Assembly: GCA_016873715.1 (NCBI GenBank)
Contig: VGWF01000018.1
Location: 1-45,168, forward strand
DNA: 45,168 nt
Source of the DNA: Lentisphaerota bacterium
GTDB taxonomy: Bacteria > Verrucomicrobiota > Kiritimatiellia > PWTM01
Direction of reading: 5' to 3'
In this document: piece by piece, positions 23,060 to 37,818 of the stretch
How positions within the stretch are numbered: position 1 is the first letter of the stretch
Layout of the letters: the number at the start of each line of letters is the position of its first letter
Notes under the pieces: generated by a model
Told to the model about the DNA's origin: nothing
The model's database searches: none
What the model saw: the letters and a program-made list of their open reading frames with translations, nothing else
Position numbers and translations under genes: made by a program

Positions 23060-24430
23060 CTACAGCGCCGGCGGCTTCGGCAGTCCTTCGATGGACTTCA
23101 ACGACTTCGCCATCTCGTCCGGCGACATCAGGTAATTCGTCAGCTTGCCCGCGAGATAGGCGTCGTAGCCCGTCAGGTCCATCAGCCCGTGCCCGGACCA
23201 GTTCATGAGGATGACCTTCTGCCTGCCCTCCTCCTTGGCGCGCTTCGCCTCGCGGATCGTCGCCGCGATGGCGTGCGAGGTCTCGGGCGCCGGGATGAAG
23301 CCCTCCGTCCGCGCCCACAGCATCGCGCTTTCGTAGCACTCGAGCTGCGGCAGCGCCGCGGCCTCGATCAGGTCGAGGCGCTTGAGGTGCGAGACCAGCG
23401 GCGCCATGCCGTGGTAGCGCAGGCCGCCCGCGTGGATCGGCGGCGGCACGAACGTGTGGCCGAGGCTGTACATCGGCAGCAGCGGCGTCATCATCGCCAC
23501 GTCGCCCGAGTCGTAGACGTAGGGGGCCGCGGTCATGCGCGGGCACGCGGCGGGCTCGGCCGCGATCACGCGCAGGTCCTTCCCGTGGATCTTGTCGCAC
23601 ACGAACGGGAAGCTGATGCCCGCGAAGTTCGATCCGCCGCCGGCGCAGCCGATGACGATGTCCGGATACTCGCCGAACTTCTGCATCTGCTTCTTCGCCT
23701 CGAGACCGATGATCGTCTGGTGCATGCAGACGTGGTTCAGCACGCTGCCCAGCGAGTAGCGCGTGTCCTTCGAGGTCACGCAGTCCTCGATCGCCTCGCT
23801 GATCGCGATGCCCAGGCTGCCCGGCGTGTTCGGATCCTTCTCGAGGATCATCCGCCCGGTCTGCGTCGTCGGCCCGGGGCTCGGCAGGCACTCGGCGCCC
23901 CACGTCTGCATCATCATCTTCCGGAACGGCTTCTGCTCGAAGGAAATCCGGACCATGTAGACGCGGCACTGGAGGCCGAAGAGCTGGCAGGCGAACGAGA
24001 GCGCGCTGCCCCACTGGCCGGCGCCGGTCTCGGTCGTCAGCCGCTTGATGCCGAAGACCTTGTTGTAGTAGGCCTGCGGCACCGCGGTGTTCGGCTTGTG
24101 GCTGCCGGCGGGCGAGACGCCCTCGTTCTTGTAGTAGATGTGCGCGGGCGTGCCGAGGGCCTGCTCCAGCGCGCGGGCGCGGTAGAGCGGCGACGGGCGC
24201 CACATCAGCAGCTTCTCGAGGACCGGCTCCGGGATGTCGATCCAGCGCTGCGTCGACACCTCCTGCTCGATGATGTTCATCGGGAAGACCGGCGCAAGGT
24301 CCTGCGGGCCGACGGGCGATCCGTCGGGCTTCAGCGGCGGCGGCATCGGCTTCGGAAGGTCGGCCGCGATGTTGTACCACTGGCGCGGGATCTCGTTGTC
24401 GTCGAGCACTGCCTTGATGCGTTCCGTCAT
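23060..24430 (-). CDS. trpB: TrpB2-type tryptophan synthase beta-like PLP enzyme
   Basis: 456 aa, longer than classic TrpB (about 400), as for TrpB2. It opens with [19 protein letters not shown], then [12 protein letters not shown], the PLP lysine in [26 protein letters not shown], the phosphate-binding [11 protein letters not shown], and a C-terminal MNWSGHG. These are TrpB2 hallmarks. TrpB2 condenses indole (or phosphoserine-derived aminoacrylate) to tryptophan and often acts without TrpA. No trpA is nearby, so it is a stand-alone enzyme here and may salvage indole. GGGGGACACC precedes the start. The 123-nt upstream gap holds heptamer repeats. Confidence 0.92.
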
Positions 24431-35889: not shown

Positions 35890-36918
35890 TCAGGCCCACA
35901 CGCCCGCGCAGACCGCGCCGCAGGCCGGACACGCGCCGCCGGCGGCGAGGCGGTTCTCCAGTACGCGGAAGCCGTCGCGGCGGACCAGCACGGCGCCGCA
36001 TCCGTGGCAGGACGTGGCGCTTCCCTCGTCGTCGCGGACGTTGCCCGTGTAGACGTGGCGGACCCCGGCGGCGAGCGCGATCCCTCGCGCGCGGCGCAGG
36101 GAGGCGGCCCCGGTCGGCTCGCGGTCGAGCATGCGATGGTTCGGATGAAACGCGCTGAAGTGAAGCGGCACATCCGGCCCGAGACTCGCGACGATCCACT
36201 CCGCCATGCGGCGGAGCTCGCCGTCGGAGTCGTTCTCGCCCGGGATGACGAGCGTCGTCACCTCCAGCCAGACGCGCGTCGCGCGGCGGATGTGGACCAG
36301 CGAGTCGAGGACCGGCTGGAGGTGCCCGCCGCAGAGGCGGCGGTAGAAGCGCTCGTCGAACGACTTGAGGTCGACGTTCGCGGCATCCATCTCCCCGAAG
36401 AACGCGGCGCGCGGGCCGGGCTCGATGTAGCCCGCCGTCACGGCGATCGTCCGGAGTCCCGCGGCGCGGCACGCGGCGGCGCAGGCCCGCGTGTACTCGT
36501 AGGAGACGACCGGCTCGTTGTAGGTGAACGACACGCTCGGGCAGCCGGCGCGGCGCGCCGTCTCGACGATGTCGGCCGGGGAGACGGTCTCGTCCGAGAG
36601 CGCGGACTCGTCCGCCGGACGGCTGATGGGCCAGTTCTGGCAGAAGCGGCAGGCCAGGTTGCAGCCGATCGTTCCGAAGGAGAGCGTCCGCGATCCCGGC
36701 AGAAAGTGGTGGAGCGGCTTCTTCTCGACCGGGTCCGCCGCGGCGCCGCTGATGCGCCCGTACGCGGCGGGCTCCACGATCCCGCCGCGGGCGCGGCGCG
36801 CGAAGCAGATCCCGCGCTGTCCATCCTTCAGGGCGCAGCGATGCGGACAGAGGCCGCATTCGATGCGGCCATCCGGCAGCGCCGCGCAGGGAGCGCGGAA
36901 TTCCGCGGGAACATCCAT
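35890..36918 (-). CDS. amrS: AmrS radical-SAM enzyme (AmmeMemoRadiSam system)
   Basis: 342 aa. The radical-SAM cluster motif is CNLACRFCQNW (CxxxCxxC). An N-terminal zinc-like ribbon (CGLCPHRCALKDGQRGIC) and a C-terminal one (CHGCGAVL, CPACGAVC) are typical. FTYNEPVVSYEY, DAANVDLKSFDERFYRRLCGG, TTLVIPGENDS and HFSAFHPNHRM match AmrS proteins, which occur with AmrA and AmrB; neither is in the window. The precise chemistry of this family is not settled. The start at 36918 has GGAG 5 nt upstream; the longer frame would begin at 36984 inside the palindrome and is unlikely. It lies 4 nt from the convergent hydrolase gene. Confidence 0.88.
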   Translation of the reverse strand: MDVPAEFRAPCAALPDGRIECGLCPHRCALKDGQRGICFARRARGGIVEPAAYGRISGAAADPVEKKPLHHFLPGSRTLSFGTIGCNLACRFCQNWPISRPADESALSDETVSPADIVETARRAGCPSVSFTYNEPVVSYEYTRACAAACRAAGLRTIAVTAGYIEPGPRAAFFGEMDAANVDLKSFDERFYRRLCGGHLQPVLDSLVHIRRATRVWLEVTTLVIPGENDSDGELRRMAEWIVASLGPDVPLHFSAFHPNHRMLDREPTGAASLRRARGIALAAGVRHVYTGNVRDDEGSATSCHGCGAVLVRRDGFRVLENRLAAGGACPACGAVCAGVWA

Positions 36919-36973
36919 CGACTCCAGCATCCCCCCGGCGCAACCGGATGCAAGACGCAAATCCGCCGCCCCC

Positions 36974-37019
36974 CGACGTTGCATGAAATGTAACGATCGT
37001 TACATTTCATGCAACGTCG
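36974..37019. repeat. Perfect 46-bp palindrome with symmetric promoter elements
   Basis: Two 23-nt arms with no spacer (centre between 36996 and 36997) match without error. The inner AAATGTAACGATCGTTACAT core is AT-rich against a GC-rich background. Each strand reads TTGCAT, 16 nt, TACATT (plus: 36979-36984 and 37001-37006), a -35/-10 pair pointing outward to both flanking genes. It may be a divergent promoter-operator, a TetR-size operator, or a mobile palindromic element. Confidence 0.85.
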
Positions 37020-37058
37020 ACGGCGGGCAGGCAGGGCGCCGGACGACCGGCGCGCGCC

Positions 37059-37092: not shown

Positions 37093-37818
37093 ATGAAGTC
37101 GCGATCGAGCATCGGCCTCGCGGTCCTGGCGGCCGGGGCGGCCGCCGCGGTCACCGAGCCGCCGGCGTTCGACCGGTACCAGGTGATCCTGGACCGCCAG
37201 CCGTTCGGCGTGGTGCTGGTCGCCCAACCGGCGGCGAGCAATGCGTCGCCGGCGATCGTCGCGGGGCCCGGCGGCGAGGCGCTCGGCCTGCGCGCCTGCA
37301 GCCTGATCATGGTCGAGAGCGTCGGTCCGCGGGCCGGCCTGGTCGAGGTCAAGACCAGCAAGAGCTACTTCCTGATCCCCGGCGAGACGCAGGATGGCAT
37401 CAAGCTGGTCTCCGCCGACTACGACGCCGAGGAGATCGTGATCCAGCGCGGCACGGAGATGGCGATCCTCCGGCTCAAGGAGGCGAGCGCGACGGAGAAG
37501 AAGACGACGGGCTCCGCCCTCGCGACGACGTCGTCGAAGCTCTCCTTCGAGGAACGGCGCAAGGCCTTCGAGCAGCAGCGGAACGCCCCCCCGACACCCC
37601 CCGCGGCACCGCCCGCGCCGCGCCTCCAGGGCGCCGATCTCGAGAAACACCTCCAGCAATACCAGATGGAGGTCATCCGTCAGGGCATGCCTCCACTGCC
37701 GATCCCGCTCACGCAGGAGATGGACAGCCAGTTGGTCAAGGAGGGCGTCCTCGCTCCGCAGGCCCCCGTGGTGATCCAGGGCGCGGAGGCCCAGATCATC
37801 ATCCAGCATCAGCCGTAG
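37093..37818 (+). CDS. Exported protein of unknown function (GspC/PilP-like region?)
   Basis: 241 aa. A short signal-like N-terminus (MKSRSSIGLAVLAAGAAAAV) precedes FDRYQVILDRQPFGVVLV. This YQVILDRxPFG beginning resembles GspC/PilP-like periplasmic domains of secretion or pilus systems, but no secretion gene is nearby, so this is a weak hint. The middle (about 55-135) is beta-rich. The C-terminal third is charged, then Pro-rich (NAPPTPPAAPPAPR) with LEKHLQQYQMEVIRQGMPPLPIPLT. Probably periplasmic or surface-associated. Starts just after a strong promoter and beside the palindrome. I do not recognise its function. Confidence 0.7.
   Translation: MKSRSSIGLAVLAAGAAAAVTEPPAFDRYQVILDRQPFGVVLVAQPAASNASPAIVAGPGGEALGLRACSLIMVESVGPRAGLVEVKTSKSYFLIPGETQDGIKLVSADYDAEEIVIQRGTEMAILRLKEASATEKKTTGSALATTSSKLSFEERRKAFEQQRNAPPTPPAAPPAPRLQGADLEKHLQQYQMEVIRQGMPPLPIPLTQEMDSQLVKEGVLAPQAPVVIQGAEAQIIIQHQP

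Follow-up and report, generated by a model that had tools for sequence, protein, structure and literature searches.

A perfect spacer-free palindrome beside amrS is one of eight near-identical copies dispersed in a Lentisphaerota genome

The 46-bp palindrome at positions 36974-37019 of the window (the whole 45,168-nucleotide stretch of Lentisphaerota bacterium DNA that was analysed) belongs to a set of eight near-identical copies dispersed through its genome (G000; 5.13 Mb in 289 contigs). We read it, with a probability of roughly 0.55, as a REP-like, low-copy, genome-specific, loopless intergenic repeat that spread as a unit and stays near-invariant through either its recency or a symmetric reader. 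The original prediction had set a divergent promoter-operator against a recently mobile palindrome, and proposed a search that would separate a single copy beside amrS from dispersed ones; the search returned eight dispersed copies. Dispersal favours the second alternative, within which mobility itself is something that we infer.

The palindrome, CGACGTTGCATGAAATGTAACGATCGTTACATTTCATGCAACGTCG, is made up of two 23-nt arms that match exactly around a zero spacer, and inspection of both arms bore out the error-free symmetry first described. An imperfect dyad extends beyond the perfect part, to 36965-37028. By a hand estimate, ~1e-8 perfect 46-bp palindromes are expected in 45 kb at ~68% GC, and the longest spacer-free palindrome in 841 kb of unrelated bacterial DNA has 12-nt arms (24 bp). 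The palindrome is real, at a length far above chance expectation. The commonest spacer of bacterial inverted repeats is 4 bp (PMC13155455). Instability is a known property of long perfect palindromes (PMC7999016). Within the shared core, the sequence can be read as two 17-bp dyads around GATC, with dyad centres 21 bp apart (Table 1).

Table 1. Features at the palindrome in the window, and positions and flanking genes of the eight genomic copies
Feature	Position	Strand	Basis or remark
Perfect spacer-free 46-bp palindrome (two 23-nt arms)	36974..37019	none	sequence
38-bp core common to eight genome copies	36978..37015	none	7 identical, 1 with one substitution
Left 17-bp imperfect dyad, GTTGCAT-GAA-ATGTAAC	36978..36994	+	sequence
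Central GATC between the two dyads	36995..36998	none	sequence
Right 17-bp imperfect dyad, mirrors the left dyad	36999..37015	-	sequence
Promoter-like hexamers TTGCAT-16-TACATT	36979..37006	+, and - by symmetry	sequence
C-rich left flank	36958..36977	none	part of the outward G skew at 8/8 copies
G-rich right flank	37016..37035	none	first base purine, as in 16/16 arms
amrS-like radical SAM gene	35890..36930	-	neighbour; start codon inferred
Predicted exported protein	37093..37818	+	neighbour; without Pfam match
Copies of the core (contig:start)	C18:36978, C33:788, C34:21044, C34:23693, C54:12346, C120:4049, C133:11724, C167:7438
Divergent copy			amrS / predicted exported protein
Divergent copy			URO-D gene / GH97-like gene
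Divergent copy			U32 peptidase / GFO/IDH oxidoreductase
Tandem copy			lipA / bioA
Tandem copy			cobW / sulfatase
Tandem copy			alaS / GFO/IDH oxidoreductase
Convergent copy			tctA-like / apiosidase-like gene
Convergent copy			gatB / paaX-like; paaX-like stop codon falls inside palindrome arm

The 38-bp core, GTTGCATGAAATGTAACGATCGTTACATTTCATGCAAC, occurs eight times in G000, with seven identical occurrences and a single substitution in the copy at C34:21044. We found no further copies of the 36-bp core in this genome at up to three mismatches, no lone 17-bp dyads elsewhere at up to one mismatch, and no half or degraded copies; the only other matches were a weak 3-mismatch match to the 20-bp centre and one to the 18-bp arm. 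Outside the core, the sequences flanking the copies are unrelated. The base after the core is nonetheless a purine in 16 of 16 arms (9 G, 7 A), and the next base is T in 11 of 16. Outward G-minus-C skew over 20 nt has a mean of 0.26 and is positive at all eight copies, against 0.00 (sd 0.12) in an intergenic control, where 0 of 20,000 samples reached 0.26. With this outward G-richness on either side, the element has a graded and symmetric edge, which suits protein recognition or a preferred target. By hand calculation, the core holds ~76 bits of information, compared with the ~20 needed to mark eight places in G000, an excess that points to recent copying of the element as one piece, to a reader protein with an extensive contact surface, or to both. 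Joined across the copies, the flanks always meet as Y followed by R. No consistent 2-12 bp direct repeat marked a target-site duplication at any assumed edge, and BLAST of the flanks against all sampled DNA, in which the genus has no other genome, gave no clear empty site.

According to gene calls made around the copies, the neighbouring genes are divergent at three of them, tandem at three and convergent at two. Seven copies are wholly intergenic, one overlaps a stop codon and none lies within a gene body; given a coding fraction of 0.886 for the contigs that carry them, the position of all eight outside gene bodies is not due to chance. Several neighbours were named from Pfam matches and the rest by reading of their sequences; the genes are unrelated and have no function in common. 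At the window copy, gene calling agreed with the original assignment of an amrS-like gene to the minus side and a predicted exported protein to the plus side. A separate observation on contig C54 is a tctB-like gene (L007:4043-4837) with an in-frame tandem repeat of ~17 residues (GVEPGPPGAVDGMSGTA).

This arrangement led us to reject the palindrome as a divergent promoter-operator of amrS, as originally proposed: the core stands at eight unrelated places, and a location at the starts of regulated genes fails for the convergent copies (2/8) and those in tandem gaps (3/8). Because the convergent copies have no gene start to regulate and the neighbours lack a common function, promoter-operator activity is refuted as the element's general role, although an individual copy could yet affect the genes beside it. 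Of the identical outward promoters claimed for the palindrome, the hexamers are present on both strands, but only 7 of their 12 positions fit the sigma-70 consensus, which makes a weak promoter, and the promoter scan did not report them. The same hexamers occur in the identical copies elsewhere in the genome, so if the window copy does drive transcription of amrS or of the exported-protein gene, this would be incidental.

The same contexts bear on two further explanations. The element could act as RNA, folding into a hairpin of 17 bp with GAUC as its loop and terminating or stabilising transcripts of either direction. A strong hairpin is predicted on either strand, its stem lengthened by the C-rich 5' and G-rich 3' flanks. 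We regard this as very unlikely, as the hairpin lacks a U-tract and drew no terminator-like call, three of the copies separate divergent genes, a setting in which transcripts are not expected to end, and conservation extends to the sequence rather than to pairing alone, with the single variant copy breaking a pair. A known RNA family was rejected, with no match in Rfam. It is scarcely credible that the copies are artefacts of library construction or assembly, for instance a palindromic linker built into the contigs. Mate-pair linkers are similar in form to a 38-bp palindrome with two 19-nt arms, and the assembly is fragmented into 289 contigs and has odd local duplications in parB; yet chimeric joins would mostly hit genes, which none of the eight copies does, every arm continues with a purine into flanks that are G-skewed outward, and an independent genome, G005, has a different dispersed palindrome.

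The sequence of the element appears confined to its own genome. Its 20-bp centre was absent, at up to two mismatches, from 96 relatives, members of the same family included, and had no exact match in the genome_contigs and viral_contigs sets. Phages gave no match to the element and plasmids only two partial ones, and a phage or plasmid origin was set aside as having no useful match. By sampling the spacer-free palindromes of family members, we found in G005, of the same family, a different long loopless palindrome; CACACTTYGCRAAGTGTG has 124 matches in G005, one in G003, two imperfect ones in G006 and none in G000. Among 48 distinct G005 copies read, 42 have the centre CGCG and six the centre TGCA, the latter with different outer arms, and both types are symmetric. 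All 40 copies assignable to a gap are intergenic (18 tandem, 11 convergent, 11 divergent), an orientation similar to that of G005 gaps in general (52, 19 and 21, respectively) and thus neutral. One identical one-arm substitution recurs in 13 of the 42 CGCG copies and never on both arms, as would be seen in a copied subfamily, or it could instead be a tolerated base. At positions 14-17, the two arm edges of a G005 copy are more alike than those of shuffled arms. We discarded the idea that each copy has its own pairing between flanks, which was not significant in G000 and weak in G005, at 30 nt only.

Samples of 20 other genomes of the class also contained long loopless palindromes, in G013, G010, G029 and G009, and these further examples belong to other families of the class. 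G029 and G005 both carry TCACACTT....AAGTGTGA, with a different centre. Two loci of G029 (L275:19449/19527 and L284:13324/13401) each have a pair of TATCACAGTTTATAAACTGTGATA palindromes separated by 77-78 bp. The window palindrome is one case of a kind that recurs in its class, among the relatives sampled. Going by gene content and faint signals in relatives of amrS, this class is probably Kiritimatiellia. A literature search on palindromic repeats in Kiritimatiellota found nothing relevant.

Several other repeats were seen in the course of these searches. The G029 pairs enclose unrelated AT-rich DNA, as if two sites bracketed a promoter. In G015, units of 21 bp that contain TTCCA-N7-TGGAA dyads form arrays at many intergenic locations (L024, L026, L028, L030, L032, L034); a relaxed pattern of the two-dyad architecture gave 48 matches in this genome, which we judged to be a different repeat on account of these tandem arrays. 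G005 has a second repeated dyad near its palindromes, TTTTCCAAG-CCTTGGAAAA-like (L153, L156 and other loci), and a recurring GGGACAGAGA(T/A) motif, both representing other repeat families of that genome.

We find it quite unlikely that the copies are operators of a single transcription factor, a regulon in which the window copy would control amrS and the gene for the exported protein. In its favour, a pair of dyads spaced 21 bp apart could seat two cooperating dimers, six of the eight copies have one or more gene starts downstream, and similar palindromes in G029 come in pairs around AT-rich DNA. Regulons, however, show a range of site strengths, and weaker or single-dyad sites are absent from G000. 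Two copies lie between convergent gene ends, the neighbours are functionally unconnected, and no regulator gene adjoins any copy in an autoregulatory position.

The main rival, unlikely in our judgement, is that the copies are binding sites of a chromosome-organising or segregation protein (matS-, Noc- or parS-like). The sites are few, near-invariant, symmetric and intergenic, with symmetrically graded core edges, and are indifferent to gene orientation; the graded edges and the near-absence of decayed copies equally fit selected protein-binding sites. Canonical parS, TGTTTCACGTGAAACA, is absent from G000 at up to two mismatches and from 36 of 37 sampled relatives at up to one mismatch, yet a parB-like gene is present, and the class may use another centromere site. 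The half-sites GTTRCAT loosely resemble the parS half GTTTCAC, although the palindrome differs in sequence from canonical parS, which was rejected as its identity. Sites of this sort are normally common to related species, whereas the 20-bp centre is missing from the 96 relatives, those of the family among them; around parB, the part of the contig that was read contains no copy, in a genome divided among 289 contigs; and the copy number of the analogous element varies widely, from eight in G000 to 124 in G005 and one in G003. The parB-like gene itself (L037; G000:C45, ~23279-23831) matches in two overlapping pieces that lie in different frames, and it contains small local duplications; either the gene is broken or the assembly is at fault.

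Under the preferred reading, that of a dispersed genome-specific repeat, we infer both a spread in trans and a reader protein. The element would be copied as a unit by machinery acting in trans, as is suggested by core information far above the ~20 bits needed, and its copies would be tolerated only between genes. The core would remain near-invariant through recent spread, or through one symmetric protein that reads all of it, possibly as two 17-bp dyads with centres 21 bp apart. More broadly, we propose, tentatively and as the less probable case, that the class carries an undescribed dispersed, loopless and fully symmetric element whose sequence is replaced from genus to genus with its symmetry kept, spread or read by a symmetric protein, and that it might stand in for canonical centromere sites, which the class seems to be without. 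The recurrence of long loopless palindromes that are genus-specific but symmetric points to a protein copying or reading them, and would offer a natural system for how perfect palindromes spread and survive. It also carries a caution, namely that a lone long palindrome between divergent genes need not be their operator.

The element shares features with several known systems. The sites of parS, matS and Noc type number from few to dozens, are near-invariant and indifferent to orientation, and those of parS and Noc are palindromic; the element resembles them in its few near-invariant sites and its indifference to gene orientation, but is longer (38 bp), has another sequence and is not common to relatives. 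QacR-type operators (TetR family) are long palindromes that could seat two dimers, as could the element, which differs in its convergent copies and in having neither an adjacent autoregulated regulator gene nor weaker sites. With MITEs and other small non-autonomous transposable elements it shares dispersed, near-identical copies without coding capacity; it is far shorter and has no separate terminal repeats or target-site duplication.

The closest comparison is with REPs, which typically have a one-sided tag and an associated RAYT transposase that recognises a single strand in folded form (PMC3733652, PMC8266576). Like REPs and REPINs, the element is short (20-40 bp), palindromic, multi-copy, extragenic and different between species, and its eight copies are highly similar and mostly extragenic. 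Unlike REPs, it has no GTAG/CGTC tag on one side, its flanks reading purine then mostly T on both, and as a zero-spacer perfect dyad it has no loop or bulge, whereas the REP stem-loop is needed for strand discrimination. The element is fully symmetric, its strands being indistinguishable, and has only eight copies, some of them between divergent genes, a context from which REPs tend to be absent (PMC3733652, PMC8266576). None of the three Y1_Tnp genes in G000 or the five in G005 has its own genome's palindrome within the ~1.5 kb read on each side, and a RAYT-driven REP was rejected on this lack of linkage. One Y1_Tnp (RAYT-like) gene, at L020 (G000:C27), has on its flanks four copies of CCCACCGGG-5-CCCGGTGGG that alternate in form; this gene and its own palindrome, CCCACCGGG...CCCGGTGGG, are a likely true REP system of G000. 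The window element is REP-like in its distribution and, by the defining tests, distinct from a REP.
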